The notes beneath the pieces were generated by a model. The model worked only from the letters and a program-made list of their open reading frames with translations. It had not been told where the DNA came from and searched no databases. Of a stretch of DNA of 64,000 nucleotides, positions 1-64,000 are shown piece after piece. Positions within the stretch are counted from its first letter, which is position 1. Every line of letters begins with the position of its first letter. Source of the stretch: Chamaelirium japonicum (taxonomy: Eukaryota; Streptophyta; Magnoliopsida; Liliales; Melanthiaceae); the NCBI GenBank assembly GCA_947650365.1, contig CANTAL010000026.1:434001-498000 (forward strand). The letters are read 5' to 3'. Position numbers and translations under genes: made by a program.

Positions 1-597
1 ATTCATTCGTACAATGCGTTCTAATCCATTCGTACGATCTATTCTAATTCATTCGTACGATCCATTCTAATTCATTTGTACGAATGGATCCATTCTAATT
101 CATTAGTACGATCCATTCTAATTCATTCTTACATTCCATTCTAATTCATTCGCACGAATGTATCCATTCTATTTTATTCGCACAATCCATTCTAATTCAT
201 TCGTACGATCCATTCTAATCCATTCGTACGATCCATTCTAATTCCTTCGCATGAATGTATCCTTTCTAATTCATTCGTACGATCCATTCTAAGTCATTCG
301 CACGATCCATTCTAATTCATTCGCACGAATGTATCCATTCTAATTCATTTGCACGATCCATTCTAATTCATTCCTATGATCCATTCTAATTCATTCGTAC
401 GATCCATTCTAATTCATTCGTCCGATCCATTCAAATTCATTCGTACGAATGTAACCATTCTAATTCATTCGTACGATCCATTCTAATTCATTCCTACGAT
501 CTATTCTAATTCATTCGCACGAATGTATCCATTCTAATTCATTTGCACGATCCATTCTAATTCATTCCTAAGATCCATTCTAATTCATTCGTACGAT
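1..597 (+). repeat. satellite block, + orientation, cut by window edge
   Basis: Mixed 23 and 28 bp units. It ends in TTCGTACGATCGAATTAG, where a + core runs straight into a - unit. Confidence 0.9.
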
Positions 598-2205
598 CGA
601 ATTAGAATGGATCGTGCGAATGAATTAGAATGGATCGTACGAATGAATTAGAATGGATCGTACAAATGAATTAGAAAGGTTACATTTGTGAGAATGAATT
701 AGAATGGATCGTACGAATGAATTAGAATGGATCATACGAATGTACTAGAATGGATCGTACGAATGGATTAGAATGGATCGTACGAATGGATTAGAATGGA
801 TCGTACGAATGGACTAGAATGGATCGTACGAATGGACTAGAATGGATCGTACGAATGGATTAGAATGGATCGTACGAATAAATTTGAATGGATACATTTG
901 TGCGAATGAATCTGAATGGATTATATGAATGAATTACAATGGATCGTACGAATGAATTAGAATGGATCGTACGAATGAATTAGAATAGCTCATACGAATG
1001 AATTAGAATGGATCATACGAATGAATTAGAATGGATCGTACGAATGAATTATAATGGATCGTACGAATGGATTAGAATGGATCGTGTGAATGAATTAGAA
1101 TGGATCGTATGAATGAATAAGAATGGATCGTACGAATGAATTAGAATAGATACATTCGAGCGAATGAATTAGAATGAATTAGAATGGATCGTACGAATGA
1201 ATTAGAATGGATCGTACAAATGAATTAGAATGGATCGTATGAATGAATATGAATGGATCGTACGAATGGATTAGAATGCATTGTACGAATGAATTAGACT
1301 GGATCGTACGAATGGATTAGAATGGATCGTACGAATGAATTAGAATGGATCGTACGAATGAATTAGAATGGATACATTCGAGCGAATGAATTAGAATGGA
1401 TCGTACGAATGAATTAGAATGGATCGTGCGAATAAATTAGAATGGATCGTACGAATGAATTAGAATGGATCGTACAATGGATTAGAATGGATCGTGCGAA
1501 TGGATTAGAATAGATCGTACGAATGAATTAGAATGGATCGTACGAATGGATTAGAATAGATCGTACGAATGAATTAGAATGGATCATACAAATGAATTAG
1601 AAAGGTTACATTCGTGAGAATGAATTAGAATGGATCGTACGAATGAATTAGAATGGATCCACCAAATGAATTAGAATGGTTACATTTGTGCCAATGAATT
1701 AAAATGTATCATGCGAATGAATTAGAATGGATCGTACGAATGAATTAAAATGGTTACATTCATGCGAATGAATTAGAATGGATCGTACGAATGAATTAGA
1801 ATGGATCGTGTGAATGAATTAGAATTGATCATACGAATGAATTAGAATGGATCGTATGAATGAATTAGAATGGTTACATTCGTGCGAATGAATTAGAATG
1901 GATCGTACGAATGGTTTAGAATGGATCGTACGAATGGATTAGAATGGATCGTACGAATGAATTAGAATCGATCGTGCGAATGAATTAGAATTGATCATAC
2001 GAATGAATTAGAATGGATCGTACGAATGAATAAGAATGGATCGCTCGAATGGATCCATTCTAATTAGAATGGATCGTACGAATGAATTAGAATGGATCAT
2101 AGGAATGAATTAGAATGGATCGTGCAAATGAATTAGAATGGATACATTCGTGCGAATGAATTAGAATGGATCATGTCAATGAATTTGAATGGATCGTACG
2201 AATGA
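598..2205 (-). repeat. satellite block, - orientation
   Basis: Reads GAATTAGAATGGATCG throughout. Units with GGATTAGAATGG (from TAATCC rather than TAATTC) cluster at 760-870. A patch of about 15 bp in + orientation sits at 2,050-2,064, between GGATCGCTCGAATGG and AGAATGG. Confidence 0.88.
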
Positions 2206-4008
2206 ATCCATTCTAATTCATTCGTACGATCCATTCTAATTAGAATGGATCCATTCTAATTCATTCGCACAATCCATTCTAATTCATTTGTACGATCCAT
2301 TATAATTCATTCGTATGATCCATTCTAATTAGAATGGATCCATTCGAGCGATCCAATCTAATTCATTCGTACAATCCATTCTAATTCATTCGTATGATCA
2401 ATTCTAATTCATTCGCTCGAATGTATTCATTCTAAATCATTTGTACGATCCATTCTAATTCATTTGTACGATCCATTCTAATTCATTCGTACGATCCATT
2501 CTAATTCATTCGCACGAATGTAACCATTCTAATTCATTCGTACGATCCATTCTAATTCATTCGCATGATACATTCTAATTCATTCGCACAAATATAACCA
2601 TTCTAATTCATTCGGAGGATCCATTCTAATTCATTCGTACGATCCATTCTAATTCATTCTCATGAATGTAACCTTTCTAATTCATTTGTATGATCCATTC
2701 TAATTTATTCGTACGATCCATTCTAATCCATTCCTACGATCCATTCTAATTCATTCGTACGATCCATTCTAATTCATTCGCACGATCCATTCTAATTCAT
2801 TCGCTCGATTGTATCCATTCTAATTCATTCGTATGATCCATTCTAATTCATTCGCATGATCCATTCTAATTGTGCAAATGAATTAGAATGGATACCTTTG
2901 TGCACATGAATGTATCCATTCTAATTCATTCGTACGATCCATTCTAATTCATTCGCTTGAATGTATCCATTCTAATTCATTCGTACGATCCATTCTAATT
3001 CATTCGTACGATCCATTCTAATTCATTCTCACGAATGTAACCTTTCTAATTCATTTGTATGATCCATTCTAATTCATTCGTACGATCCATTCTAATTCAT
3101 TCTCACGAATGTAACCTTTCTAATTCATTTGTCTAATCCATTCTAATTCATTCGTACGATCCATTCTAATTCATTCACACGATACATTCTAATTCGTTCG
3201 TATGATCCATTTTAATTCATTCGTACGATCCATTCTAATTCATTTGCATGAATGTATCCATTCTAATTCATTCGTACGATCCATTCCAATTCATTCGTAT
3301 GATCCATTCTAATTCATTCATGCAATCCATTCTAATTCATTCATACGATCCATTCTAACTCATTCTCACAAATGTAACCTTTCTAATTCATTTGTACGAT
3401 CCATTATAATTCATTCGTACGATCTATTCTAATTCATTCGCTCGAATGTATCCATTCTAATTCATTCGTACGATCCATTCTAATTCATTGTACGAATGTA
3501 ACCATTCTAATACATTCGTACGATCCATTCTAATTCATTCATACAATCCATTCTAATTCATTCGCACGAATCTATCCATTCTAATTCATTCGTATGATCC
3601 ATTCTAATCCATTCGTACGATCCATTCTAATTCATTCTCACAAATGTAACCTTTCTAATTCATTTGTACGATCTATTCTAATTCATTTGTACGATCCATT
3701 CAAATCCATTCGTACGATCCATTCTAATTCATTCCTACGATCCATTCTAATTCATTCGCACGAATGTATCCATTCTAATTCATTTGCACGATCCATTCTA
3801 ATTCATTCCTATGATACATTATTATTCATTCGTACGATCCATTCTAATTCATTCGCTCGAATATATCCATTCTAATTCATTCGTATGATCCATTCTAATT
3901 CGTTCATACGATCCATTCTAATTTGTTCGTATGATCCATTCTAATTCATTCGTATGTATCCATTGTAATTCATTCGCACGAATGTATCCATTCTAATTCA
4001 TTCCTACG
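2206..4008 (+). repeat. satellite block, + orientation, with three mini-inversions
   Basis: Three very short - patches interrupt it: about 2,240-2,250, about 2,330-2,340 and about 2,870-2,912. The last carries one full - unit (GTGCAAATGAATTAGAATGG). The open frame at 3,594-3,875 is satellite. Confidence 0.88.
2317..2340. repeat. 24 bp perfect palindrome
   Basis: Centre CTAATTAG: here two units meet at their TAATT side rather than at the core. A related 22 bp palindrome centred on GGATCC is at 2,239-2,260. Confidence 0.9.
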
Positions 4009-4685
4009 AATGAATTAGAATGGATCGTACGAATGGATTAGAATGGATCGTACGAATGAATTAGAATGGATCGTACAAATGAATTAGAAAGGTTACATTT
4101 GTGTGCGAATGAATTAGAATGGATCGTACGAATGAATTAGAATGGATCGTGTGAATGAATTAGAATGGATCGTATGAATAAATTAGAATGGATCGTACGA
4201 ATGAATTAAAATGGATACATTTGTGCGAATGAATTAGAATGGATCGTATGAATTAGAATGGATACAAATGAATTAGAATGGATCGTATGAATGAATAAGA
4301 ATGGATCGTACGAATGAATTAGAATGGATCGTGTGAATGAATTAGAATGAATCATACGAATGAATTAGAATGGAACGTATGAATGAATTAGAATGGTTAC
4401 ATTCGTGCGAATGAATTAGAATAGATCGTACGAATGAATTAGAATGGATCGTGCGAATGAATTAGAATGAATCGTACAAATGCATTAAAATGGATACATT
4501 CGTGCGAATGAATTAGAATGGATCGTATGAATGAATTAGAATGGATCGTGCGAATGAATTAGAATGGATCAGACGAATGAATTAGAATGGATCATGCGAA
4601 TGAATTACAATGGATCGTACGAATGAATTAGAATGGATCGTACGAATGAATTAGAATTAGATCATACGAATGAATTGGAATGCAT
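4009..4685 (-). repeat. satellite block, - orientation
   Basis: Opens at CCTACGAATGAATTAG and closes at GGAATGCATTTAAATTC, a junction that recurs at 12,894. Its right part belongs to the 8,208 bp spaced pair. Confidence 0.88.
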
Positions 4686-5660
4686 TTAAATTCATTCGTA
4701 CGATCCAATCTAATCCATTCGCACGAATGTATCCATTCTAATTCATTCGCACGATCCATTCTAATTCATTCGTACGATCCATTCTTATTCATTCATACGA
4801 TCCATTCTAATTCATTCGTACGATCCATTCTAATTAGATCGTGTGATCCATTCTAATTCATTCGCACAAATGTATCCATTTTAATTCATTCGTACGATCC
4901 ATTCTAATTTATTCATACGATCCATTCTAATTCATTTGCACGATCCATTCTAATCCATTCGTACGATCCATTCTAATTCATTCGTACGATCCATTCTAAT
5001 TCATTCCTACGTACGATCCATTCTAATTTATTTGCACGAATGTAACCATTCTAATTCATTCGTACGATCCATTCTAATTCTTTCCTACGATCCATTCTAA
5101 TTCATTCGCACGAATGTATCCATTCTTATTCATTCGTACTATCCATTCTAATTCATTCGTACGATCGATTCAAATTCATTCGCACGATCCATTCTAATTC
5201 ATTCGTACGATCCATTCTTATTCATTCATACGATCCATTCTAATTCATTCACACAATCCATTCTAATTCATTCGTACGATCCATTCTAATTCATTCGTAT
5301 GATCCATTCTAACTCATTTTAGAATGGATCGTACGAATGAATTAGAATGGATCGTACGAATGAATTAGAATAGATCGTACAAATTAATTAGAATGGATCG
5401 TGCGAATGAATTAGAATTGATCATACGAATAAATTAGAATGGATCATACGAATGAATTAGAATGGATCATGCGAATGAATTAGAATCGATCGTACGAATG
5501 AATTAGAATGGATATATTTGAACGAATAAATTAGAATGGATCATACGAATGAATTAGAATGGATCGTATGAATGAATTAAAATAGATCGTGCGAATGAAT
5601 TAAAGTATGAATGAATTAGAATGGATCGTACAAATGAATTAGAATAGATCGTGCGAATGA
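4441..5660. repeat. segment duplicated 8,208 bp downstream, left copy
   Basis: GCATTTAAATTC, CTCATTTTAGAATGG and GGATATATTTGAACG each recur exactly 8,208 bp on. Similarity continues further left (to about 4,273) after a 51 bp step. The LTR lies between the copies. Confidence 0.85.
4686..5318 (+). repeat. satellite block, + orientation
   Basis: Closes at CTAACTCATTTTAGAATGG, an unusual junction that recurs exactly 8,208 bp later. Confidence 0.88.
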
Positions 5661-5989: not shown

Positions 5990-6023
5990 TGTTGGGGGTA
6001 GCTGAAACTCGCCCAGGAGTTTG

Positions 6024-6047
6024 CCCCCCCCCCCCCCCCCCCCCCCC
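6024..6047 (+). repeat. poly-C tract of 24 within the LTR
   Basis: An unbroken run of 24 C lies near the 5' end of the LTR. The other strand is G24, which can form G-quadruplex structures. Its length is likely to vary between copies and is prone to sequencing error. Confidence 0.95.
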
Positions 6048-6112
6048 GTGCTCACCAAATCATCTTGACAGGGAGCGAGATCCACATTGAGCTGAAGGGG
6101 CCCTAGGCAAAG

Positions 6113-6199
6113 AGCTCGCTCAGGAGCTCACCCAAGCTCGCTCAGGAGCTCGCCCAAGCTCGCTCAGGAGCTTGCCCAAGCTCGCTCAAGAGCTCGCCA
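6113..6199 (+). repeat. 22 bp tandem repeat inside the LTR U3, about four copies
   Basis: Four near-identical units of the form AGCTCGCTCAGGAGCTCGCC plus CA follow one another; the last is 21 bp. A related single unit lies apart at 6,282-6,303 (AGCTCAGTCAGGAGCTCACC plus CA). Short repeats of this sort in U3 are common in LTR elements and often affect promoter strength; that role is inference here. Confidence 0.85.
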
Positions 6200-6724
6200 A
6201 GCTCGCACGAGAATTCGCTTGCAGTGGCAGCGGGAGTTAGACCGGCATGCGAACAAACACACCGGTACCGCAGACGTCCCAAGCTCAGTCAGGAGCTCAC
6301 CCAAGACCACCCCGGAGCTCGCCCCAGCTCGCCAAGACTGCCCCATTTATCGAAGAGGTTGCTCCTGCAAGGTCTGACTCTTGATAGATGAGGAAGTGAA
6401 GGCGGAGCAACGGAGGGCGAGCTTGCCCTGGCTTCCCACCTGAGGTTGCCCACAATAGGGCAGTATGAAGGGCTGCCAGGTATCGAAATCCCATAGAAGC
6501 TACGAGGACAAACATCCATTGAAGCCCGCCCTAGTCAGTTTGAGACCGCCCAGACTTGAACATTCCAGAATAACCACCTGGCAGCAACAAGAAAGATGCT
6601 CACCCCCACTCAAACTGCCTGGCAGGCTCGACGACAAAGAATGTCAGGGGCGCGAGTTTCAAGGACGGTCAGAGACCCACGCGGGCCAGAACGTGGAGCT
6701 CTAGAAGACTCTGGAAAGAATCTC

Positions 6725-6730
6725 CACGTG
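6725..6730 (+). promoter_or_regulatory. G-box-like CACGTG in the LTR
   Basis: CACGTG within CCACGTGTC lies 27 bp upstream of the TATA box. In plants this core is bound by bZIP and bHLH factors and the ACGTGTC form resembles an ABA-response element. The match is exact, but function is inferred only from position. Confidence 0.4.
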
Positions 6731-6756
6731 TCGAGCCGCGGTAGGTCGCCAATGTC

Positions 6757-6763
6757 TATAAAT
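6757..6763 (+). promoter_or_regulatory. TATA box of the LTR promoter
   Basis: TATAAAT in a GC-rich context, about 770 bp from the LTR start. Transcription would begin roughly 25-35 bp downstream, which sets the U3/R border near 6,785-6,800. No clear AATAAA signal was seen after it. Confidence 0.6.
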
Positions 6764-6959
6764 GCTCACCCCCAGGCTCCAGAGTATAGGTTCGAAACCC
6801 TTTTCCCTACCACTTTCGTCCACTATAGCTCGCGATTGTGCACCTAAGACTGACTTGAGCGTCAGAGGGTCTGCGCTCCTAAGGGAGCCAGCCGTTCTTA
6901 CGCTTTTTCTTTGTCTTGCAAGCAGCCCGCACGGACCAGCGAAAAATTCCACCCAAACA

Positions 6960-11930: not shown

Positions 11931-12893
11931 ACTGAATTAGAATGGATCATGTGAATTAATTAGAATGGATTGTGCGAATGAATTAGAATGGATACATTGG
12001 TGCGAATGAATTAGAATGGATCGGACGAATGGATTAGAATGGATCGTACGAATGAATTAGAATGGATCGGGCAAATGAATTAGACTGGATTGTATGAATG
12101 AATTAGAATGGATACATTCGATCGAATGAATTAGAATAGATCGTGCGAATGAATTAGAATAGATCGTACGAATGAATTAGAATGGATATATTTGAACGAA
12201 TAAATTTGAATGGATAGTGCGAATGAATTAGAATGGATCGTGCGAATGAATAAGAATGGATCATACGAACGAATTAGAATGGATCATACGAACGAATTAG
12301 AATGGATCGTACGAACGAATTAGAATGGATCGTACGAACGAATTAGAATGGATCGTATGAATTAATAAGAATGGATCGTACGAATGAATTAGAATGGATC
12401 GTGCGAATGAATTAGAATGAATCGTACGAATGCATTAGAATGGATACATTCGTGCGAATGAATTAGAATGGATCGTACGAATGAATTAGAATGGATCGTG
12501 CGAATGAATTAGAATGGATCGTACGAATGAATTAGAATGGATCGTATGAATGAATAAGAATGGATCGTACGAATGAATTAGGATGGATCGTGTGAATGAA
12601 TTAGAATCAATCATACGAATGAATTAGAATGGATCGTACGAATGAATTAGAATGGATCGTGCGAATGAATTAGAATGAATCGTACAAATGCATTAGAATG
12701 GATACATTCGTGCGAATGAATTAGAATGGATCATACGAATGAATTAGAATGGATCGTGCGAATGATTTAGAATGGATCGGACGAATGAATTAGAATGGAT
12801 CATACGAATGAATTAGAATGGATCGTACGAATGAATTAGAATGGATCTTCCGAATGAATTAGAATTAGATCATACGAATGAATTGGAATGCAT
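11931..12893 (-). repeat. satellite block, - orientation
   Basis: A run of GAACGAATTAG units (CG where GAATGAATTAG is usual) lies at 12,266-12,350. The right part matches 4,273-4,685. Confidence 0.88.
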
Positions 12894-13868
12894 TTAAATT
12901 CATTCGTACGATGCAATCTAATCCATTCGCACGAATGTATCCATTCTAATTCATTCGCAAGATCCATTCTAATTCATTCGTACGACCCATTCTTATTCAT
13001 TCATACGATCCATTCTAATTCATTCGTACGATCCATTCTAATTAGATCATATGATCCATTGTTATTCATTCGCACAAATGTATCCATTTTAATTCATTCG
13101 TACGATCCATTCTAATTTATTTTTACAATCCATTCTAATTCATTCGCACGATCCAATCTAATCCATTCGTACGATCCATTCTAATTCATTCGTACGATCC
13201 ATTCTAATTCATTCCTACGTACGATCCATTCTAATTCATTTGCACGAATGTAACCATTCTAATTCATTCGTAAGATCCATTCTAATTCTTTCCTACGATC
13301 CATTCTAATTCATTCGCACGAATGTATCCATTCTAATTCATTCGTACGATCCATTCTAATTCATTCATACGATCCATTCAAATTCATTCACACGATCCAT
13401 TCTAATTCATTCGTACAATCCATTCTTATTCATTCATACGATCCATTCTAATTCATTCGCACAATCCTTTCTAATTCATTCTTACGATCCATTCTAATTC
13501 ATTCGTATGATCCATTCTAACTCATTTTAGAATGGATCGTACGAATGAATTAGAATGGATCGTACGAATGAATTAGAATAGATCGTACAATTGAATTAGA
13601 ATGGATCGTGCGAAAAAATTAGAATTGATCATACGAATGAATTAGAATGGATCGTACGAATGAATTAGAATGGATCGTGCGAATGAATTAGAATCGATCG
13701 TACGAATGAATTAGAATGGATATATTTGAACGAATAAATTAGAATGGATCAGACGAATGAATTAGAATGGATCGTACGAATGAACTAGAATGGATCGTGC
13801 GAATGAATTAGAGTACGAATGAATTAGAATGGATCATACAAATGAATTAGAATAGATCGTGCGAATGA
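12649..13868. repeat. segment duplicated 8,208 bp upstream, right copy
   Basis: Partner of 4,441-5,660. It contains the same -/+/- junction pair, so the junctions were copied with the block. Confidence 0.85.
12894..13525 (+). repeat. satellite block, + orientation
   Basis: Copy of 4,686-5,318 at a fixed spacing of 8,208 bp. Confidence 0.88.
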
Positions 13869-47404: not shown

Positions 47405-50245
47405 GTCCGAATGAATTAGAATGGATCGTTCAAATGAATTAGAATAGATCGTGCGAATAAATTAGAATGGATCATACGAATGAATTAGAATAGATATATA
47501 CATGCGAATGAATTAGAATGGATCGTACGAATGAATTAAAATGGATCGTGCGAATGAATTAGAATGGATACATTAATGCGAATGAATTAAAATGGATACA
47601 TTTGTGCGAATGAATTAGAATGGATCATACGATTGAATTTGAATGGATCGTACGAATGAATTAGAATGGATACATTTGTGCGAATTAATTAGAATGGATC
47701 GTACGAATGAATTAGAATGGATCATACGAATGAATTAGAATGGATCGTACGAATGAATTAGAATGGATAGTGCGAATGAATTAGAATGGATCGTACGAAT
47801 GAATTAGAATGGATACATTCGTGCGAATGAATTAGAATGAATCGTACGAATGAATTAGAATAGATCGTACAAATGAATTAGAATGGATCGTGCGAATGAA
47901 TTAGAATTGATCATACGAATGAATTAGAATGGATCGTACGAATGAATTAGAATGGATCGTGCGAATGAATTAGAATGGATCGTACGAATGAATTAGAATG
48001 GATATATTTGAACGAATAAATTAGAATGGATCATACGAATGAATTAGAATGGATCGTGCGAATGAATTAGGATCGATCGTACGAATGAATTAGAATGGAT
48101 CGTACGAATGAATTAGATCGTACGAATGAATTAGAATGGATCGTACGAATGAATTAAAATGGATACATTCATACGACTGAATTAGAATGGATTGTATGAA
48201 TAAATTAGAATGGATCATACGAATGAATTAGGATGGATCGTGCGAATGAATTAGAATGGATCGTACGAATGAATTAGAATGGATATATTTGAACGAATAA
48301 ATTAGAATGGATCATACGAATAAATTAGAATGGATCGTACGAATGAATTAGAATGGATCATGCGAATGAATTAGAATCGATCGTATGAATGAATTAGAAT
48401 GGATCGTATGAATGAATTAGATCGTACGAATGAATTAGAATGGATTGTACGAATGAATTAAAATGGATACATTCATACGGCTGAATTAGAATGGATCGTG
48501 CGAATTAATTAGAATGGATCGTACGAATGAATTAGAATGGATCGTACGAATGAATTAGAAAGGATACATTCGTGCGAATAAATTAGAATGGATCGGACGA
48601 ATGAATTAGAATGGATCGTACAAATGAATTAGAATGGATCATATGAATGAATTAGAATGGTTACATTCGTGCGAATAAATTAGAATGGATCGTACGAATG
48701 GATTAGAATGGATCGTACGAATGGATTAGAATGCATTGTACGAATGAATTAGAATAGATACATTTGTGCGAATGAATTAGATTGCATCGTACGAATGAAT
48801 TTGAATGGATTGTACGAATGAATTAGAATAGATCGTATGAATGAATTAGAATGGATCATGCGAATGAATTAGAATAGATCGTACGAATGAATTAGAATGG
48901 ATCGTACAAATAAATTAGAATGGATCGTGCGAATGAATTAGAATGGATCGTACGAATGAATTAGAATGGATCCACCGAATGAGTTAGAATGGATCATACG
49001 AATGAATTAGAATGGATCGTACAAATGAATTGGAATAGATTGTGCGAATGAATTATAATGGATATATTCGTGCGAATGAATTAGAATGGAATGTAATAAT
49101 GAATTAGAATGGATCGTACTAATGAATTAGAATGGATCCATTCGTACAAATGAATTAGAATGGATCGTACGAATGGATTAGAATGGATCGTACGAATGGA
49201 TTAGAACGCATTATACAAATGAATTAGAATGGATCATACGAGTGGATTAGAATGGATCGTACGAATGAATTAGAATGGATCGTATGAATGAATTAGAATG
49301 GATACATTCGAGCGAATGAATTAGAATGGATCGTACGAATGAATTAGAATGGATCAGAGGAATGAATTAGAATGGATCGTGCAAATAAATTAGAATGGAT
49401 ACATTCGTGCGAATGAATTAGAATGGATCGTAGAAATGAATTAGAATGGATCGTATGAATGAATTAAAATGGTTACATTCGTGCGAATGAATTAGAATGG
49501 ATCGTACGAATGGATTAGAATGCATCATACGAATGGATTAGAATGGATCGTACGAATGAATTAGAATGGATCGTACAAATGAATTAGAAAGGTTACATTT
49601 GTGAGATATTTGAATGGATCGTACGAATGAATTAGAATGGATCGTACGAATGGATTAGAATGGATCGTACGAATGGATTAGAATGGATCGTACAAATGAA
49701 TTAGAATGGATCATACAAATGAATTAGAAAGGTTACATTCGTGAGAATGAATTAGAATGGATCGTACGAATGAATTAGAATGAATCATGCGAATGAATTT
49801 GAATGGATCGTACGAATGAATTAGAATGGATCGAATGAATGAATTAGAATGGATACATTCGAGCGAATGAATTAGAATAGATCGTAGGAATGAATTAGAA
49901 TGGATCATACGAATGAATTAGAATGGATCGTGCGAATGAATTAGAATGAATCGTACGAATGAATTAGAATGGATACATTCGAGCGAATGAATTAGAATAG
50001 ATCGTACGAATGAATTAGAATGGATCATAGGAATGAATTAGAATGGATCATGCAAATGAATTAGAATGGATACATTCGTGCGAATGAATTAGAATGGATC
50101 GTAGGAATGAATTAGAATAGATCGTACGAATGAATTAGAATGGTTACATTCATGCGTATGAATTAGAATGGATCGTACGAATGAATTAGAATGGATCGTT
50201 CGAATGAATTAGAATTGATCATACGAATGAATTAGAATGGATCGT
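47405..50245 (-). repeat. satellite block, - orientation (B1)
   Basis: About 2.84 kb. It holds the common 198 bp open-frame module in inverted orientation (49,711-49,908). Ends at the centre of a 44 bp perfect palindrome. Confidence 0.88.
47985..48500 (-). repeat. local tandem duplication of 281-304 bp
   Basis: GATATATTTGAACG occurs at 48,001 and 48,282; the ATACGACTGA/ATACGGCTGA mark at 48,171 and 48,475. The 23 bp change in spacing is one unit. The same structure sits in HOR B copy 2 at about 56,650-57,165. Confidence 0.78.
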
Positions 50246-50267
50246 ACGATCCATTCTAATTCATTCG
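50224..50267. repeat. 44 bp perfect palindrome at a strand switch
   Basis: The centre is GGATCGTACGATCC between 50,245 and 50,246. Both arms are perfect for 22 bp and then continue as imperfect satellite for kilobases with no spacer. Confidence 0.93.
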
Positions 50268-50309
50268 CACGATCCATTCTAATTCATTCGTACGATCCAT
50301 TCTAATTCA

Positions 50310-50690
50310 TTCGCACGAATATAACCTTTCTAATTCATTCGTACGATCCATTCTAATTCATTCCTACGATCCATTCTAATTCATTCGCACGAATGTATCC
50401 ATTCTAATTCATTTGCACGATCCATTCTAATTTATTCCTATGATCCATTCTAATTCATTCGTACGATCCATTCTAATTGGATCGCTCGAATGTATCCATT
50501 CTAATTCATTCGTACGATCCATTCTAATTCGTTCATATGATCCATTCTAATTCGTTCGTACGATCCATTCTAATTTGTTCGTACGATCCATTCTAATTCA
50601 TTCGCACCATCCATTCTAATTCATTCTCACTAATGGAACCTTTCTAATTCATTTGTATGATCCATTCTAATTCATTCGTGCGATCCATTC
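50310..50690 (+). repeat. run repeated 1,685 bp downstream, inside HOR B
   Basis: The rare CTAATTGGATCGCTCG and the units around it (50,310-50,690) return at about 51,995-52,350. So HOR B contains an older internal duplication. Confidence 0.75.
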
Positions 50691-51699
50691 TAATTCATTC
50701 GTATGATCCATTCTAATTTATTTGCACGATCAATTCTAATTCATTCCTATGATCCATTCTAATACATTCGTACGATCCATTCTAATTCATTCGATCGAAT
50801 ATATCCATTCTAATTCATTCATACGATCCATTCTAATTCATTCGTACGATCCATTCTAATTCATTCTCACGAATGTAACCTTTCTAATTCATTCGTACGA
50901 TCCATTCTAATGCATTCCAACGATCCATTCTAATTTATTCGCACGAATGTATCCATTCTAATTCATTTGCACAATCCATTCTAATTCATTCCTATGATCC
51001 ATTCTAATTCATTCGTACGATCCATTATAATTCATTCGCACGAATGTATCCATTCTAATTCATTCGTACAATCCATTCTAATTCATTCGCACGATCCATT
51101 CTAATTCATTCGTATGATCCATTCTAATTCATTCCTACGATCTATTCTAATTCATTCGCTCGAATGTATCCATTCTAATTCATTCGTTTGATCTATTCTA
51201 ATTCATTCGTACGATCCATTCAAATTCATTCGCATGATCCATTCTAATTCATTCGTACGATCCATTCTAATTCATTCTCACGAATGTAACCTTTTTAATT
51301 CATTTGTATGATCCATTCTAATTCATTCGTACGATCCATTCTAATCCATTCGTACGATCCATTCTAATCCAATCGTACGATCCATTCTAATCCATTCGTT
51401 CGATCCATTCTAATTCATTCTCACAAATGTAACCTTTCTAATTCATTTGTACGATCCATTCTAATTCATTCGTACGATCCATTCTAATCCTTTCGTACGA
51501 TCCATTCTAATCCATTCGTACGATGCGTTCTAATTCATTCGCACGAATGTAACCATTCTAATTCATTCGTACGATCCATTCTAATTCATTCCTACGATCC
51601 ATTCTAATTCATTCGCACGAATGTATCCATTCTAATTCATTTGCACGATCCATTCTAATTCATTCCTATGATCCATTCTAATTCATTCGTACGATACAT

Positions 51700-51950
51700 T
51701 CTAATTCATTCGCTTGAATATATCCATTCTAATTCATTCGTACGATCCATTCTAATTCGTTCATACGATCCATTCTAATTCGTTCGTACGATCCATTCTA
51801 ATTCATTCGTACGATCCATTCTAATCCATTCGTACGATCCATTCTAATTCATTCGTACGATCCATTCTAATTCATTCGCTTGAATATATCTATTCTAATT
51901 CATTCGTACGATCCATTCTAATTCGTTCATACGATCCATTCTAATTCATT
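51700..51950 (+). repeat. 166 bp local duplication
   Basis: CGCTTGAATATATC followed by the TTCGTTCATACG unit appears at 51,711 and 51,877, and again in HOR B copy 2 at 60,376 and 60,542. Confidence 0.75.
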
Positions 51951-53955
51951 CGCACGATCCATTCTAATTCATTTGTACGATCCATTCTAATTCATTCGCA
52001 CGAATGTAACCTTTCTAATTCATTCGTACGATCCATTCTAATTCATTCCTACGATCCATTCTAATTCATTCGCACGAATGTATCCATTCTAATTCATTTG
52101 CACGATCCATTCTAATTCATTCCTATGATCCATTCTAATTCAATCGTATGATCCATTCTAATTGGATCGCTCGAATGTATCCATTCTAATTCATTCGTAC
52201 GATCCATTCTAATTCGTTCATACGATGCATTCTAATTCGTTCGTACGATCCATTCTAATACGTTCGTACGATCCATTCTAATTCATTCGCACGATCCATT
52301 CTAATTCATTCTCACGAATGTAACCTTTCTAATACATTTGTATGTATGCATTCTAATTCATTCGTATGATCCATTCTAATTCTTTCGCACGATCCATTCT
52401 AATTCATTCGTACGATCCATTCTAATTCATTCGCTCGATCCAATCTAATTCATTCGTACGATCCATTCTAATTCATTCGCACGAATGTATCCATTCTAAT
52501 GCATTCGTACGATTCATTCTAATTCATTCGCACGAACCATTCTAATTCATTCGTACGATCCATTCGAATTCATTCGTCTGATCCATTCGAATTCATTCGC
52601 ACGAATGTATCCATTCTAATTCATTCGTATAATCCATTCTAATTCATTCGCACGATCCATTCTAATTCATTCGTATGATCCATTCTAATTCATTCCTACG
52701 ATCTATTCTAATTCATTCGCTCGAATGTATCCATTCTAATTCATTCGTTCGATCCATTCTAATTCATTCATACGATCCATTCAAATTCATTCGTACGATC
52801 CATTCTAATTCATTCGTACGATCTAATTCATTCGTACGATCCATTCTAATTCATTCGTACAATCGATTCTAATTCATTCGCACGATCCATTCTAATTCAT
52901 TCGTACGATCCATTCTAATTCATTTGTATGATCCATTCTAATTTATTCGTTCAAATATATCCATTCTAATTCATTCGTACGATCCATTCTAATTCATTCG
53001 CACGATCCATTCTAATTCATTCGCACGAATGTATCCATTCTAATTCATTTGCACGATCCATTCTAATTTATTCCTATGATCCATTCTAATTCATTTATAC
53101 GATCCATTCTAATTCATTCGCTGGAATGTATCCATTCTAATTCATTCGTACGATCCATTCTAATTCGTTCATACGATCCATTCTAATTCGTTCGTACGAT
53201 CCATTCTAATTCGTTCGTACGATCCATTCTAATTCATTCGTATGATCCATTCTAATTCATTCGCTCGAATGTATCCATTCTAATTCATTCGCTCGAATGT
53301 TTCCATTCTAATTCATTCGCTCGAATGTATCCATTCTAATTCATTCGTTCGATCCATTCTAATTCATTTGTACGATCCATTCAAAATCATTCGCATGATC
53401 CATTCTAATTCATTCGTACGATCCATTCTAATTCATTCTCACGAATGTAACCTTTCTAATTCATTTGTATGATCCATTCTAATTCATTCGTACGATCCAT
53501 TCTAATCCATTCTAATTCATTCGTACGATCCATTCTAATTCATTCGTACGATCCATTCTAATTTATTTGTATGATCAATTCTAATTCATTCGCACGATCC
53601 ATTCTAATTCATTCTCACGAATGTAACCTTTCTAATTCATTTGTATGACCCATTCTAATTCATTCGTACGATCCATTCTAATCCATTCGTACGATCCATT
53701 CAAATCCATTCGTACGATCCAGTCTTATCCATTCGTACGATCCATTCTAATTCATTCGTACGATCCATTCTAATTCATTCTCATAAATGTAACCTTTATA
53801 ATTCATTTGTACGATCCATTCTAATTCATTCGTACGATCCATTCTAATCCATTCATACGATCCATTCTAATCCATTCGTATGATCCATTCTCATTCATTC
53901 GCACGAATGTAACCATTCTAATTCATTCGTACGATCCATTCTAATTCATTCCTAT

Positions 53956-55174
53956 GAATGAGTTAGAATGGATCATATGAATGAATTAGAATGGATCGTA
54001 CAAATGAATTAGAATGGATCGAACGAATGAATTAGAATGGATACATTGGAGCGAATGAATTAGAATAGATCATAGGAATGAATTAGAATGGATCATACGA
54101 ATGAATTAGAATGGATTGTGCGAATGAATTAGAATGGATTGTACGAATGAATTAGAATGGATACATTCATGCGAATGAATTAGAATAGATCGGACGAATG
54201 AATTAGAACGGATCGTACGAATGAATTAGAATGGATCGTGCGAATGAATTAGAATGAATCGTACGAATGCATTAGAATGGATCCATTCGTGCGAATGAAT
54301 TAGAATGGATCGTACGAATGAATTAGAATGGATCGTGCGAATGAATTAGAATAGATCGTACGAATGAATTAGAATGAATCGTGCGAATGAATTAGAATGG
54401 ATCGTACGAATGAATTAGAATGGATACATACAAATGAATTAGCAAGGTTACATTCGTGAGAATGAATTAGAATGGATCGTACGAATGAATTAGAATGGAT
54501 CGTACGAATGAATTAGAATGGATACATTCGAGCGAATGAATTAGAATGGATCGTACGAATGAATTAGAATGGATCATAGGAATGAATTAGAATGGATCGT
54601 GCAAATGAATTAGAATGGATCGTCTGAATGGATTAGAATAGATCGTACGAATGAATTAGAATGGATCATACAAATGAATTAGAAAGGTTACATTCGTGAG
54701 AATGAATTAGAATGGATCGTGCGAATGAATTAGAATGGATCGTGTGAATGAATTAGAATGGATCGTACGAACGAATTAGAATGGATCGTATGAACGAATT
54801 AGAATAGATCGTACGAATGAATTAGAATGGATACATTCGAGCGAATGAATTAGAATGGATCGTACAAATGAATTAGAATGGATCATAGGAATGAATTAGA
54901 ATGGATCGTGCAAATGAATTAGAATGGATACATTCGTGCGAATGAATTAGAATGGATCGTAGGAATGAATTAGAATGGATCGTACGAATGAATTAGAATG
55001 GTTACATTCGTGCGAATGAATTAGAATGGATCGTACGAATGAATTAGAATGTAACGTGCGAATAAATTAGAATGGATCGTACGAATGAATTAGAATGGAT
55101 CGTGAGAATGAATTAGAATGAATCGTACGAATGCATTAGAATGGATCGTACGAATGAATTAGAATGAATCGTAC
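53956..55174 (-). repeat. satellite block, - orientation (B2)
   Basis: Counterpart of 45,291-46,509. Confidence 0.88.
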
Positions 55175-56069
55175 GATCCATTCTAATTCATTCGTCCGAT
55201 CCATTATAATTCATTCGCACGAATGTATCCATTCTAATTCATTCTTACAATCCATTCTAATTCATTCGCACGATCCATTCTAATTCATTCGTATGATCCA
55301 TTCTAATTCATTCCTACGATCTATTCTAATTCATTCGCTCGAATGTATCCATTCTAATTCATTCGTTCGATCCATTCTAATTTATTCATACGATCCATTC
55401 AAATTCATTCGCATGATCCATTCTAATTCATTCGTACGATCCATTCTAATTCATTCTCACGAATGTAACCTTTCTAATTCATTTGTATGATCCATTCTAA
55501 TTCATTCGTACGATCCATTCTAATCCATTCGTACGATCCATTCTAATCCATTCGTACGATCCATTCTAATTCATTCGTACGATCTATTCTAATTCATTCT
55601 CACAAATGTAACCTTTCTAATTCATTTGTACGATCCATTCTAATTCATTCGTATGATCCATTCTAATCCATTCGTACGATCCATTCTAATCCATTCGTAT
55701 GATCCATTCTAATTCATTCGCACGAATGTAACCATTCTAATTCATTCGTACGATTCATTCTAATGCATTCCTACGATCCATTCTAATTCATTCGCACGAA
55801 TGTATCCATTCTAATTCATTTGCACGATCCATTCTAATTCATTCCTATGATCCATTCTAATTCATTCGTACGATCCATTCTAATTCATTCGCTCGAATGT
55901 ATCCATTCTAATTTTTTCGTACGATCCATTCTAATTCGTTCGTACGATCCATTCTAATTCGTTCGTACGATCCATTCTAATTCATTCGCATGATCCATTC
56001 TAATTCATTTGTACGATCCATTTTAATTCATTCGCATGATCCATTCTAATTCATTCGTATGATACATTC
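55175..56069 (+). repeat. satellite block, + orientation (B2)
   Basis: Counterpart of 46,510-47,404; the open frame at 55,293 encodes the same peptide as that at 46,628. Confidence 0.88.
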
Positions 56070-58910
56070 GTCCGAATGAATTAGAATGGATCGTACAAAT
56101 GAATTAGAATAGATCGTGCGAATAAATTAGAATGGATCATACGAATGAATTAGAATAGATATATTCATGCGAATGAATTAGAATGGATCGTACGAATGAA
56201 TTAAAATGGATCGTGCGAATGAATTAGAATGGATACATTAATGCGAATGAATTAAAATGGATACATTTGTGCGAATGAATTAGAATGGATCATACGATTG
56301 AATTTGAATGGATCGTACGAATGAATTAGAATGGATACATTTGTGCGAATTACATAGAATGGATCGTACGAATGAATTAGAATGGATCATACGAATGAAT
56401 TAGAATGGATCGTACGAATGAATTAGAATGGATAGTGCGAATGAATTAGAATGGATCGTACGAATGAATTAGAATGGATACATTCGTGCGAATGAATTAG
56501 AATGAATCGTACGAATGAATTAGAATAGATCGTACAAATGAATTAGAATGGATCGTGCGAATGAATTAGAATTGATCATACGAATGAATTAGAATGGATC
56601 GTACGAATGAATTAGAATGGATCGTGCGAATGAATTAGAATGGATCGTACGAATGAATTAGAATGGATATATTTGAACGAATAAATTAGAATGGATCATA
56701 CGAATGAATTAGAATGGATCGTGCGAATGAATTAGGATCGATCGTACGAATGAATTAGAATGGATCGTACGAATGAATTAGATCGTACGAATGAATTAGA
56801 ATGGATCGTACGAATGAATTAAAATGGATACATTCATACGACTGAATTAGAATGGATTGTATGAATGAATTAGAATGGATCATACGAATGAATTAGAATG
56901 GATCGTGCGAATGAATTAGAATGGATCATACGAATGAATTAGAATGGATATATTTGAACGAATAAATTAGAATGGATCATACGAATAAATTAGAATGGAT
57001 CGTACGAATGAATTAGAATGGATCATGCGAATGAATTAGAATCGATCGTATGAATGAATTAGAATGGATCGTATGAATGAATTAGATCGTACGAATGAAT
57101 TAGAATGGATTGTACGAATGAATTAAAATGGATACATTCATACGACTGAATTAGAATGGATCGTGCGAATTAATTAGAATGGATCGTACGAATGAATTAG
57201 AATGGATCGTACGAATGAATTAGAAAGGATACATTCGTGCGAATAAATTAGAATGGATCGGACGAATGAATTAGAATGGATCGTACAAATGAATTAGAAT
57301 GGATCATATGAATGAATTAGAATGGTTACATTCGTGCGAATAAATTAGAATGGATCGTACGAATGGATTAGAATGGATCGTACGAATGGATTAGAATGCA
57401 TTGTACGAATGAATTAGAATAGATACATTTGTGCGAATGAATTAGATTGCATCGTACGAATGAATTTGAATGGATTGTACGAATGAATTAGAATAGATCG
57501 TATGAATGAATTAGAATGGATCATGCGAATGAATTAGAATAGATCGTACGAATAAATTAGAATGGATCGTACAAATAAATTAGAATGGATCGTGCGAATG
57601 AATTAGAATGGATCGTACGAATGAATTAGAATGGATCCACCGAATGAGTTAGAATGGATCATACGAATGAATTAGAATGGATCGTACAAATGAATTGGAA
57701 TAGATTGTGCGAATGAATTATAATGGATATATTCGTGCGAATGAATTAGAATGGAATGTAATAATGAATTAGAATGGATCGTACTAATGAATTAGAATGG
57801 ATCCATTCGTACAAATGAATTAGAATGGATCGTACGAATGGATTAGAATGGATCGTACGAATGGATTAGAACGCATTATACAAATGAATTAGAATGGATC
57901 ATACGAATGGATTAGAATGGATCGTACGAATGAATTAGAATGGATCGTATGAATGAATTAGAATGGATACATTCGAGCGAATGAATTAGAATGGATCGTA
58001 CGAATGAATTAGAATGGATCAGAGGAATGAATTAGAATGGATCGTGCAAATAAATTAGAATGGATACATTCGTGCGAATGAATTAGAATGGATCGTAGAA
58101 ATGAATTAGAATGGACCGTATGAATGAATTAAAATGGTCACATTCGTGCGAATGAATTAGAATGGATCGTACGAATGGATTAGAATGCATCATACGAATG
58201 GATTAGAATGGATCGTATGAATGAATTAGAATGGATCGTACAAATGAATTAGAAAGGTTACATTTGTGAGATATTTGAATGGATCGTACGAATGAATTAG
58301 AATGGATCGTACGAATGGATTAGAATGGATCGTACGAATGGATTAGAATGGATCGTACAAATGAATTAGAATGGATCATACAAATGAATTAGAAAGGTTA
58401 CATTCGTGAGAATGAATTAGAATGGATCGTACGAATGAATTAGAATGAATCATGCGAATGAATTTGAATGGATCGTACGAATGAATTAGAATGGATCGAA
58501 CGAATGAATTAGAATGGATACATTCGAGCGAATGAATTAGAATAGATCGTAGGAATGAATTAGAATGGATCATACAAATGAATTAGAATGGATCGTGCGA
58601 ATGAATTAGAATGAATCGTACGAATGAATTAGAATGGATACATTCGAGCGAATGAATTAGAATAGATCGTACGAATGAATTAGAATGGATCATAGGAATG
58701 AATTAGAATGGATCATGCAAATGAATTAGAATGGATACATTCGTGCGAATGAATTAGAATGGATCGTAGGAATGAATTAGAATAGATCGTACGAATGAAT
58801 TAGAATGGTTACATTCATGCGTATGAATTAGAATGGATCGTACGAATGAATTAGAATGGATCGTGCGAATGAATTAGAATTGATCATACGAATGAATTAG
58901 AATGGATCGT
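56070..58910 (-). repeat. satellite block, - orientation (B2)
   Basis: Counterpart of 47,405-50,245. Confidence 0.88.
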
Positions 58911-58932
58911 ACGATCCATTCTAATTCATTCG
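58889..58932. repeat. 44 bp perfect palindrome, HOR B copy 2
   Basis: Identical to the one at 50,224-50,267, exactly 8,665 bp away. Confidence 0.93.
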
Positions 58933-61900
58933 CACGATCCATTCTAATTCATTCGTACGATCCATTCTAATTCATTCGCACGAATGTAACCTTTCTAATT
59001 CATTCGTACGATCCATTCTAATTCATTCCTACGATCCATTCTAATTCATTCGCACGAATGTATCCATTCTAATTCATTTGCACGATCCATTCTAATTCAT
59101 TCCTATGATCCATTCTAATTCATTCGTACGATCCATTCTAATTGGATCGCTCGAATGTATCCATTCTAATTCATTCGTACGATCCATTCTAATTCGTTCA
59201 TATGATCCATTCTAATTCGTTCGTACGATCCATTCTAATTTGTTCGTACGATCCATTCTAATTCATTCGCACCATCCATTCTAATTCATTCTCACTAATG
59301 GAACCTTTCTAATTCATTTGTATGATCCATTCTAATTCATTCGTACGATCCATTCTAATTCATTCGTATGATCCATTCTAATTTATTTGCACGATCAATT
59401 CTAATTCATTCCTATGATCCATTCTAATTCATTCGTACGATCCATTCTAATTCATTCGATCGAATATATCCATTCTAATTCATTCATACGATCCATTCTA
59501 ATTCATTCGTACGATCCATTCTAATTCATTCTCACGAATGTAACCTTTCTAATTCATTCGTACGATCCATTCTAATGCATTCCAACGATCCATTCTAATT
59601 TATTCGCACGAATGTATCCATTCTAATTCATTTGCACAATCCATTCTAATTCATTCCTATGATCCATTCTAATTCATTCGTACGATCCATTATAATTCAT
59701 TCGCACGAATGTATCCATTCTAATTCATTCGTACAATCCATTCTAATTCATTCGCACGATCCATTCTAATTCATTCGTATGATCCATTTTAATTCATTCC
59801 TACGATCTATTCTAATTCATTCGCTCGAATGTATCCATTCTAATTCATTCGTTTGATCTATTCTAATTCATTCGTACGATCCATTCAAATTCATTCGCAT
59901 GATCCATTCTAATTCATTCGTACGATCCATTCTAATTCATTCTCACGAATGTAACCTTTTTAATTCATTTGTATGATCCATTCTAATTCATTCGTACGAT
60001 CCATTCTAATCCATTCGTACGATCCATTCTAATCCAATCGTACGATCCATTCTAATCCATTCGTACGATCCATTCTAATTCATTCTCACAAATGTAACCT
60101 TTCTAATTCATTTGTACGATCCATTCTAATTCATTCGTACGATCCATTCTAATCCTTTCGTACGATCCATTCTAATCCATTCGTACGATGCATTCTAATT
60201 CATTCGCACGAATGTAACCATTCTAATTCATTCGTACGATCCATTCTAATTCATTCCTACGATCCATTCTAATTCATTCGCACGAATGTATCCATTCTAA
60301 TTCATTTGCACGATCCATTCTAATTCATTCCTATGATCCATTCTAATTCATTCGTACGATCCATTCTAATTCATTCGCTTGAATATATCCATTCTAATTC
60401 ATTCGTACGATCCATTCTAATTCGTTCATACGATCCATTCTAATTCGTTCGTACGATCCATTCTAATTCATTCGTACGATCCATTCTAATCCATTCGTAC
60501 GATCCATTCTAATTCATTCGTACGATCCATTCTAATTCATTCGCTTGAATATATCCATTCTAATTCATTCGTACGATCCATTCTAATTCGTTCATACGAT
60601 CCATTCTAATTCATTCGCACGATCCATTCTAATTCATTTGTACGATCCATTCTAATTCATTCGCACGAATGTAACCTTTCTAATTCATTCGTACGATCCA
60701 TTCTAATTCATTCCTACGATCCATTCTAATTCATTCGCACGAATGTATCCATTCTAATTCATTTGCACGATCCATTCTAATTCATTCCTATGATCCATTC
60801 TAATTCAATCGTACGATCCATTCTAATTGGATCGCTCGAATGTATCCATTCTAATTCATTCATACGATCCATTCTAATTCGTTCATACGATGCATTCTAA
60901 TTCGTTCGTACGATCCATTCTAATACGTTCGTATGATCCATTCTAATTCATTCGCACGATCCATTCTAATTCATTCTCACGAATGTAACCTTTCTAATTC
61001 ATTTGTATGTATGCATTCTAATTCATTCGTACGATCCATTCTAATTCTTTCGCACGATCCATTCTAATTCATTCGTACGATCCATTCTAATTCATTCGCA
61101 CGATCCAATCTAATTCATTCGTACGATCCATTCTAATTCATTCGCACGAATGTATCCATTCTAATGCATTCGTACGATTCATTCTAATTCATTCGCACGA
61201 ACCATTCTAATTCATTCGTACGATCCATTCGAATTCATTCGTCTGATCCATTCGAATTCATTCGCACGAATGTATCCATTCTAATTCATTCGTATAATCC
61301 ATTCTAATTCATTCGCACGATCCATTCTAATTCATTCGTATGATCCATTCTAATTCATTCCTACGATATATTCTAATTCATTCGCTCGAATGTATCCATT
61401 CTAATTCATTCGTTCGATCCATTCTAATTCATTCATACGATCCATTCAAATTCATTCGTACGATCTATTCTAATTCATTCGTACGATCTAATTCATTCGT
61501 ACGATCCATTCTAATTCATTCGTACAATCGATTCTAATTCATTCGCACGATCCATTCTAATTCATTCGTACGATCCATTCTAATTCATTTGTATGATCCA
61601 TTCTAATTTATTCGTTCAAATATATCCATTCTAATTCATTCGTACGATCCATTCTAATTCATTCGCACGATCCATTCTAATTCATTCGCACGAATGTATC
61701 CATTCTAATTCATTTGCACGATCCATTCTAATTTATTCCTATGATCCATTCTAATTCATTTATACGATCCATTCTAATTCATTCGCTGGAATGTATCCAT
61801 TCTAATTCATTCGTACGATCCATTCTAATTCGTTCATACGATCCATTCTAATTCGTTCGTACGATCCATTCTAATTCGTTCGTACGATCCATTCTAATTC

Positions 61901-64000
61901 ATTCGTATGATCCATTCTAATTCATTCGCTCGAATGTATCCATTCTAATTCATTCGCTCGAATGTATCCATTCTAATTCATTCGCTCGAATGTATCCATT
62001 CTAATTCATTCGTTCGATCCATTCTAATTCATTTGTACGATCCATTCAAATTCATTCGCATGATCCATTCTAATTCATTCGTACGATCCATTCTAATTCA
62101 TTCTCACGAATGTAACCTTTCTAATTCATTTGTATGATCCATTCTAATTCATTCGTACGATCCATTCTAATCCATTCGTACGATCCATTCTAATCCATTC
62201 GTACGATCCATTCTAATCCATTCATACGATCCATTCTAATTCATTCGTACGATCCATTCTAATTCATTCTCACAAATGTAACCTTTCTAATTCATTTGTA
62301 CGATCCATTCTATTTCATTCGTACGATCCATTCTAATCCATTTGTATGATCCATTCTAATTCATTCGCACGAATGTAACCATTCTAATTCATTCGTACGA
62401 TCCATTTTAATTAATTCCTACGATCCATTCTAATTCATTCGCACGAATGTATCCATTCTAATTCATTTGCACGATCAATTCTAATTCATTCCTATGATCC
62501 ATTCTATTTCATTCGTACGATCCATTCTAATTAATTATCACGAATGTAACCTTTCTAATTCATTTGTATGATCCATTCTAATTCACTCGTAAGATCCATT
62601 CTAATCCATTCGTACGATCCATTCTAATCCATTCGTACGATCCATTCTAATTCATTCGTATGATCCATTCTAATTCATTCTCACAAATGTAACCTTTCTA
62701 ATTTATTTGTACGATCCATTCTAATTCATTCGCACAAATGTAACCATTCTAATTCATTCATACGATCCATTCTAATTCATTCCTACGATCCATTCTAATT
62801 CATTCGCACGAATGTATCCATTCTAATTCATTTGCACGATCCATTCTAATTCATTCCTATGATCCATTCTAATTTATTCGTACGATCCATTCAAATTCAT
62901 TCGTACGATCCATTCTAGTTCATTCGCATGATCCATTCGTACGAGCCATTCTAATCCATTCATACGATCCATTCTAATTCATTCGTACGATCCATTCTAA
63001 TTCGTTCGTACGATCCATTCTAATTCATTCGCACGATCCATTCTAATTCATTCGCACGATCCATTCTAATTCATTCGTACGATCCATTCTAATTAATTTG
63101 TATGATCCATTCTAACTCATTCACACAAATGTATCCATTCTAATTCATTCCCACGATCCATTCTAATTCATTCGTACGATCCATTCTAATTCATTCGTAC
63201 GATCCATTCTAATTCATTCGCACAAATGTATGCATTCTAATTTATTTGTATGATCCATTCTAATTTATTCGTACGATCCATTCTAATTCATTCGTACGAT
63301 CCATTCTAATCCATTCGTACGATCCATTCTAATTCATTCGTATAAATGTTTCCATTCTAATTTATTCGTACGATCCAGTTTAATTCATTCGTACGATCCA
63401 TTCTAATTCTTTCGCACGAATGTATCTATTCTAATTCATTCGTACGATCCATTCTATTTCATTCGTATGATCCATTCTAATTCATTCGCACGATCCATTT
63501 AAATTCATTCGTACGATCCATTCTAATTCATTCGTATGATCCATTCTAATTCATTTATACGATCTATTCTAATTCATTCGCACGAATGTATCCATTCTAA
63601 TTCATTCGTTCGATCCATTCTAATTCATTCGCATAAATATATCCATTCTAATTCATTCGTACGATCCATTCTAATTCATTCGCACGATCCATTATAATTC
63701 ATTCGCAAAAATGTATCCATTCTAATTCATTCGTACAATCCATTCTAATTCATTCGCATGATCCATTCTAATTCATTCGTACGATCCATTCTAATTCATT
63801 TGTACGATCCATTCTGATTCATTCGCACGAATGTATCCATTCTAATTTATTCGTACGATCCATTCTAATTCATTTGCACGAATGTAACCATTCTAATTCA
63901 TTCGTACGATCCATTCGTACGATCCGTTCAAATTCATTCGCAAGAATGTATCCATTCTAATTCATTCGCACGATCAATTCTAATTCATTCGTACGATCCA
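58911..64000 (+). repeat. satellite block, + orientation, runs off the window
   Basis: About 5.1 kb, the longest block without a strand switch. To about 62,180 it is the right part of B2; beyond that it is further satellite of the common type with no copy elsewhere that I could align by eye. Confidence 0.88.

Follow-up and report, generated by a model that had tools for sequence, protein, structure and literature searches.

Frequent strand switches in a 23-bp satellite array of Chamaelirium japonicum, often in a palindrome register and copied within higher-order repeats

We analyzed a 64,000-bp stretch of the Chamaelirium japonicum genome (Melanthiaceae), positions 434,001 to 498,000 of contig CANTAL010000026.1 in GenBank assembly GCA_947650365.1. 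This stretch, called the window below and numbered from its own first base, is filled by a satellite with a 23-bp unit that changes strand 60 times. The array is, in our judgement, somewhat more probably than otherwise a mosaic made in three ways, namely by palindrome-guided strand switching, by tandem amplification of the switches, and by copying or flipping between blocks on opposite strands. All results concern this one array in this one 64-kb window.

The unit reads GATCCATTCTAATTCATTCGTAC in the orientation designated F, the opposite orientation being R, and is accompanied by a 28-bp form in which AATGT is inserted after CG. A decoder that models both forms on both strands explained 63,029 of the 64,000 bases with 93.1% identity to the model. 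It recognized ~2635 monomers, ~509 of which (~19%) belong to the 28-bp form. The rest of the window is a 970-bp solo long terminal repeat (LTR), the sole break in the array, and one base. Monomer pairs compared in register have a background identity of 87.6%. Tandem Repeats Finder reported periods including 23, 46, 69, 74, 97, 120, and 143 bp, of which those from 46 to 143 bp arise as sums of 23s and 28s. The array consists of one satellite in two forms, not of a cassette of two intermingled satellites. It runs from position 1 to 64000 and past both window ends, with F totalling 32.5 kb and R 30.5 kb.

The first-pass annotation had described more than 50 flips across the whole window, between blocks of 75 bp to 5 kb with little or no spacer. 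A hidden Markov decoder aware of the 28-bp form divided the array into 31 F and 31 R blocks with 60 direct switches between them, and a decoder that knew the 23-bp form only found 70. When the switch prior was varied over twelve orders of magnitude, from 1e-3 to 1e-15, the number stayed at 52–60; at 1e-9, the raw output held 20 switches, which became 52 once passages through the non-satellite state were ignored. Six controls yielded no switch at all: five were head-to-tail arrays simulated at the variant frequencies of the real array, and the sixth was the real array after its R blocks had been reoriented to F. The decoder run at its default prior entered the non-satellite state only at the LTR, so that no spacer of other sequence separates the blocks; at priors of 1e-9 or below, the decoder also assigned ~80–110 bases to this state. 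The described flip number, the near-absence of spacers, and the extent over the whole window were therefore confirmed, although the density is uneven, with 38 switches up to 26,839 and 22 beyond. Block lengths range from 10 to 5094 bp (median 878), the longest block being cut by the window end. The proposed size range holds for the 57 of 62 blocks that measure at least 75 bp; the other five have 10, 14, 20, 27, and 71 bp. Two of these short blocks, of 14 and 10 bp, lie in a micro-switch region (2042..2350) with F-to-R joints at AATT, where 2051-2065 recurs in inverted form at 2330-2340.

Roughly a third to half of the reversals look like copies of one another in the assembled sequence. Among exact 40-mers, the commonest repeat offset was 8665, followed by 5101 and 5176. 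Right of 26.8 kb, the blocks are arranged in units of ~5.1 kb (four copies) and 8.665 kb (two copies). The first ~5.1-kb copy (27289..32464; 5176 bp) has the block lengths R1795 F878 R1210 F1293, the second (32465..37565; 5101 bp) R1795 F877 R1159 F1270, the third (37566..42641; 5076 bp) R1749 F819 R1210 F1298, and the fourth (42642..47404; 4763 bp) R1772 F878 R1210 F903 with its last block shortened. The 8665-bp unit (47405..56069) reads R2837 F3715 R1210 F903, and its second copy (56070..64000), cut by the window end, R2837 F5094+. Between the two copies of the 8665-bp unit, identity is 97.8% across 9573 aligned columns (44414-53951 versus 53072-62611). The 5.1-kb copies are ~92–98% identical in their best alignments, and some longer alignments of other copies gave 86–89%. 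In these best alignments, the tandem units exceed the 87.6% monomer background and qualify as higher-order repeats; a monomer-level likelihood comparison detected direct homologies of up to 367 monomers. Each higher-order copy repeats its switches at the same base. Because the blocks recur in this way, the 22 switches right of 26.8 kb represent six junctions, seen 4, 4, 5, 5, 2, and 2 times. As a separate observation, the left edge of the 5.1-kb array coincides with a strand switch (26839-26844). For ~300 bp, the F arm of this switch agrees with that of the 31171 family, and its R arm differs.

A further direct copy pair lies left of this region, at 4439..5553 and 12647..13761 (offset 8208), and shares the switches 4682/12890 and 5318/13526; its identity is 92.0% over 1802 columns (4007-5808 versus 12243-14005). 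Removal of 18 of the 60 switches as copies, 16 in the 5.1- and 8.7-kb units and two in the 8.2-kb pair, left at most 42 distinct junctions. A stricter merge left ~31. It joins six loci that carry the same base change, termed J1 and described below, as well as 11,450 and 11,930, which have one unusual junction in common, and a few weaker cases. It keeps 2065 and 2330 separate, even though these lie in inverted copies of one sequence; joining these two would reduce the total from 31 to 30 and the AATT class given below from 4 to 3. Two other approaches were abandoned. Clustering by flank identity alone depended on the threshold, with 17, 30, 39, 43, and 44 clusters at 0.86, 0.88, 0.90, 0.92, and 0.94, and was replaced by positional homology. 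The other approach considered where direct alignments of at least 400 bp and 90% identity end. Of 464 such ends, 187 fell within 15 bp of a switch present in one copy only, as compared to 4.7% by chance; we rejected this as evidence because, with a background of ~87%, an alignment on one strand extends until one of the copies changes strand, and its end then falls at a switch trivially.

We then classified the junctions by register. A strand switch in a 23-bp repeat can occupy 23 registers, and each was scored per junction in windows trimmed at the borders of the neighbouring blocks. The unit has its longest palindrome in the 8-bp TCGTACGA; outside it, the only self-complementary stretches of at least 4 bp are AATT and GATC. 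Junctions 2898 and 24874 were unclassifiable and dropped, and the remaining 40 of 42 comprised 19 in the TCGTACGA register, 4 at AATT, 1 at GATC, and 16 elsewhere. After the strict merge, the corresponding numbers for 29 junctions were 10, 4, 1, and 14. Among 300 artificial joints of random array pieces, 18 fell into TCGTACGA classes and the remainder scattered over the other registers. At this control rate, the binomial tails are 2e-13 for the set of 40 and 4e-6 for the set of 29, values to be read with the proviso that junctions may share ancestry. At one AATT case, 7701, the register is right and the AATT itself is not intact. An earlier classing, in which windows overran short neighbouring blocks, had placed 21 of 41 junctions in the palindrome register and was superseded by the trimmed windows. 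About a third to half of the distinct junctions thus lie in one palindrome register, a pattern that template switching or end joining guided by microhomology would produce.

These results bear on the suggestion in the first-pass annotation that the array reflects a repair or replication process that often changes strand. The junction signature, as read from the assembly, supports a process that joins or copies opposite strands. The word "often" is not supported, since 18 of the 60 switches are copies within larger repeats and as many as 11 others probably have a common origin. A stronger version holds that the unit itself drives the flipping, the self-complementary core TCGTACGA serving as a built-in strand-switch site at one fixed register, with amplification then fixing the units that carry switches; we regard this version as possible but doubtful.

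Several features of the unit may be recorded here. It parses as CATTC TAATT CATTC followed by GTACGATC. The T pairs in both CATTC motifs (unit phases 6-7 and 16-17) are almost invariant, with 0.3–2% variants, and phases 18-22 (CGTAC) vary at 8.5–31%, so that variation within the unit is highest in the palindrome, which hosts many switches. A small hairpin sequence, CATTCGCACGAATG, lies within the 28-bp form. Of the five bases that this form has in addition, four (AATG) resemble the start of the opposite-strand unit, and for this reason the 28-bp form may be the fossil of a double strand switch inside a single monomer. The unit is reminiscent of the primate CATTC-type simple satellites, a likeness that is probably due to convergence.

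The rare J1 base change, GAATGAATC, adjoins the R-to-F switches 10755, 19592, and the 31171 family, and occurs in the opposite orientation at 11637, 17560, and the 29083 family. In the example at 31132..31223, it adjoins an R-to-F switch in the TCGTACGA register. The sequence GAATGAATCG has 58 occurrences in the ~2635 monomers and is present at five of the six J1 loci, 10,755 differing in the next base. In the J1 flanks, only the first three or so monomers on each side of the switch show an identity clearly above background; farther out, the values scatter. Since it drops to background within a few monomers, merging the J1 loci is plausible but not proven. At the R-to-F palindrome-centred junctions 8362, 10755, 11637, 17560, 19592, 21330, 29083, and 31171, we observed that the symmetry is interrupted at the sixth pair; the interruption is the J1 change at six of these loci and another base at 8362 and 21330. 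The junction 50241/58906 differs from this type in having 22 perfect pairs.

Beyond the junctions themselves, 373 inverted homology segments scored at least 22, shuffled maxima being 24.9–26.8. The best distant inverted homology links ~3.1–3.6 kb with 23.9–24.4 kb. Inverted homologies in adjacent blocks made up 12 of 97, versus 7.6% of pairs, an unconvincing excess. From a reading of the segment list, the surroundings of switch 50,241 resemble an inverted copy of the R1210|F1293 surroundings with extra repeats inside. Together, the J1 marker and the inverted homologies suggest that pieces bearing switches were copied in both orientations, and copying or flipping between blocks on opposite strands would be the means.

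If the growing strand folds onto a palindrome of its own and serves as its own template, the resulting switch should start as a perfect inverted duplication. Such fold-back replication or repair is the main rival explanation, and the palindrome-centred joints are what snap-back priming would produce; we nevertheless consider it fairly unlikely, for the following reasons. We aligned the arms outward from each switch with a free shift of up to about one monomer, which made 52, 48, and 43 of the 60 switches testable at 60, 100, and 200 columns; eight switches (eight of the 42 junction groups) with an arm below 40 bp were left out of the arm tests. Median arm identities over the first 60, 100, and 200 columns were 90%, 90%, and 89%, close to the 92%, 90%, and 89% of mismatched arms. 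At none of these three lengths did a tested switch have arms of at least 97% identity starting at the switch. The first-pass annotation had called every switch an inverted repeat. This is correct in that the same satellite lies on both sides, but in most cases the two arms resemble each other no more closely than unrelated arms do. An initial version of the arm test, with 0 of 60 switches above the null quantile, was discarded as biased low because it penalised arms of unlike phase.

A minority of junctions behave differently and are the best evidence for fold-back. The R-to-F switch 50241 (50224..50267), copied at 58906, has 22-bp perfect arms and is the best centred inverted repeat that we found. 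Centred arms are 95.0% and 96.5% identical over 200 columns at 50241 and 58906, and 94% at switch 25527; in the corresponding null of 180 mismatched arm pairs, the 95% point was 92.5% and the maximum 95.5%. Off-centre inverted homology straddles three junctions. At the F-to-R switch 22997, the arms 22443-22773 and 23338-23668 (region 22443..23668) are 98.2% identical over 331 columns; the figures are 96.8–97.1% over 315–339 columns for 29083/34259 and 97% over 435 columns for 50241/58906. In all three cases, the homology begins away from the switch, 156–224 bp to its left and 270–696 bp to its right, which counts against a snap-back at the switch itself. With offsets of up to 300 or 800 bp, 4–5 of 34 junction groups exceeded the 95% null and 2–3 the 99% null (0.34 expected); the scores point to the three junctions just named. 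This null, 686 pairs of arms from different junctions of the same array with maxima of 42 and 58, is rough: mismatched arms reach similar scores in it, and one of its top pairs, 24874 left with 21330 right, represents the same blocks that flank 22997 and ties the observed score. In another arm test, in which 52 of the 60 switches were testable, 5 of 33 junctions exceeded the 95% null and one the 99% null. As inverted relatedness across switches exceeds expectation, an inverted duplication with a loop may have been the starting point of some junctions.

The same arm data bear on whether the switches were created by misassembly or by chimeric reads. Repeats of this kind are hard to assemble. The higher-order copies, however, share switches at the same base while being ~2–8% apart, and chimeric fold-back reads would leave near-identical arms, which no tested switch has. 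For the higher-order part, an artefact is disfavoured by the combination of switches shared between diverged copies and the lack of near-identical arms; for the unique switches left of 26.8 kb, the arm argument is the one that applies. Overall, we regard an artefact as highly improbable.

A further possibility is that blocks were inverted in place, either by being cut at both ends and rejoined in reverse or by recombination between inverted arrays. Inversion of a block without loss of sequence should leave matched registers at its two ends. We compared neighbouring junctions among the switches up to 31171 and at the pair 47404/50241, including the copied junctions 12890 and 13526. Eight neighbouring pairs were both of the TCGTACGA class, which is compatible with inversion though uninformative. 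Among the 30 pairs not both TCGTACGA, one had matched registers, versus 1.3 expected. Recombination between inverted blocks would account for J1 in both orientations but cannot create new junctions. Later reshuffling could have erased matches, so that inversion in place is weakened and not killed by this result; we rate it as unlikely.

It has also been considered that selection maintains the alternation because dyad symmetry is important to the structure of centromeres or heterochromatin, a role that the authors of a study on Tribolium macro-dyads propose for their own arrays (PMC13081366). The nearly equal shares of F and R (32.5 versus 30.5 kb) and the recurrence of one junction type at many loci would fit such a role. 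On the other side, block lengths are irregular, and there are 62 blocks instead of two facing arms. A few monomers away from J1, identity is close to background, and the recurrence is accounted for by amplification, which copies the junctions. Selection thus appears to us a very remote explanation for this array.

We return to the mosaic origin that we favour. According to this model, as suggested by the junction registers, a break or stalled fork would occasionally be continued on a nearby or distant piece of the array that lies on the opposite strand. The joint would be guided by a few self-complementary bases, mostly TCGTACGA and less often AATT, which would explain why there is no spacer at the switch. 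The switch would then be copied with its surroundings by tandem amplification, giving rise to the 5.1- and 8.7-kb units with four switches each. That switches are copied within higher-order units is shown by the aligned units; unequal exchange or a rolling-circle-type mechanism would presumably be responsible. Pieces bearing switches would also be copied or flipped between opposite-strand blocks, which would place the same junction in both orientations. Copying of switches in amplified units means many flips from fewer flip events.

Some of the evidence weighs against this model. No palindrome register is involved in 16 of the 40 classed junctions, and members of the set that shows the palindrome excess may share more ancestry than was detected. 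Merging junctions into common events is a matter of judgement, and a common descent of all six J1 loci, while plausible from the sequence, rests mainly on one base. Finally, the inverted-homologue arms of 50241/58906 and the off-centre ones of 22997 and the 29083 family fit a local fold-back better than a distant template.

The one element that interrupts the array is the 970-bp solo LTR, TGTTGGGGGT...CACCCAAACA (5990..6959), which lies within an R block. It has TG...CA ends and no internal region and is flanked by the short target-site duplication GATCA at 5985-5989 and 6960-6964. Inside it lie 24 consecutive C residues (6024-6047) and, at 6113-6206, a 22-bp minisatellite, AGCTCGCTCAGGAGCTCGCCCA. 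It is a candidate for the plant Ty3 type. Searches of the window with Rfam (at gathering thresholds) and ARAGORN gave no matches. A 21-base piece of the monomer likewise had no exact match in collections of viral and genome contigs, and four pieces of 13–17 bases occurred in none of the papers searched.

Changes of orientation in satellites are hard to study, as one-way arrays keep no record of them. The array described here preserves dozens of junctions with registers at the base level and, in its higher-order part, a history of copying. It turns the idea of template switching into a countable prediction, namely that junctions fall on self-complementary cores of the satellite unit. It also indicates that flip counts overstate the number of events where switches are amplified in larger units. 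If the unit does drive the flipping, satellites with a palindromic core should drift towards a balanced mosaic of plus and minus, and those lacking such a core should stay head to tail.

The closest described systems that we found are the macro-dyad arrays of Tribolium madens, T. freemani, and T. castaneum, in which unrelated satellites have conserved inversion sites; according to the authors of that report, macro-dyad symmetries are documented exclusively in Tribolium (PMC13081366). The Tribolium arrays, as described there, resemble ours in that satellite arrays change orientation and subarrays reach kilobases; sequences at inversion sites recur in Tribolium and may do so here. They differ in that their units derive from ~110-bp elements and two satellites are intermingled, whereas the array of C. 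japonicum has one satellite with a 23-bp unit. Moreover, the Tribolium arrays mostly consist of two facing subarrays that tend to equal length, in contrast to the 62 blocks in 63 kb found here. The units at their inversion sites are 98.2–98.9% alike in two large groups; J1, in comparison, is shared by six loci with a similarity reaching about three monomers. Switches in Tribolium were seen in raw HiFi reads, whereas ours are known from assembled sequence. Unlike the account given for Tribolium, junctions in C. japonicum often occupy one palindrome register, and the switches lie within higher-order repeats (PMC13081366).

Among plants, the satellite CUS-TR24 of Cuscuta europaea likewise forms arrays of either orientation and shows segmental duplications as well as inversions (PMC8091179). 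In its 1–10 kb neighbourhood, an array of the same orientation is reported in 40–45% and one of opposite orientation in 10–15%. Its arrays are described as interrupted by simple repeats and LINEs, whereas the switches described here are direct and dense (PMC8091179). The FabTR-10 arrays of the pea chromosome 6 centromere share with ours tandem monomers, local homogenisation, and array duplication, but the source depicts each as uniform in orientation, bar one with an inversion (PMC10027222). As in higher-order repeats generally, the tandem units of several monomers are more alike than single monomers. The units of C. japonicum, however, contain both orientations, whereas alpha-satellite units have few internal inversions according to a review (PMC9859433). 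A literature search for precedents found no 23-bp satellite with this density of switches. Strand-switching satellites as such are already known; what appears new, relative to the literature searched, is the density of switches combined with palindrome registers, inside higher-order repeats.

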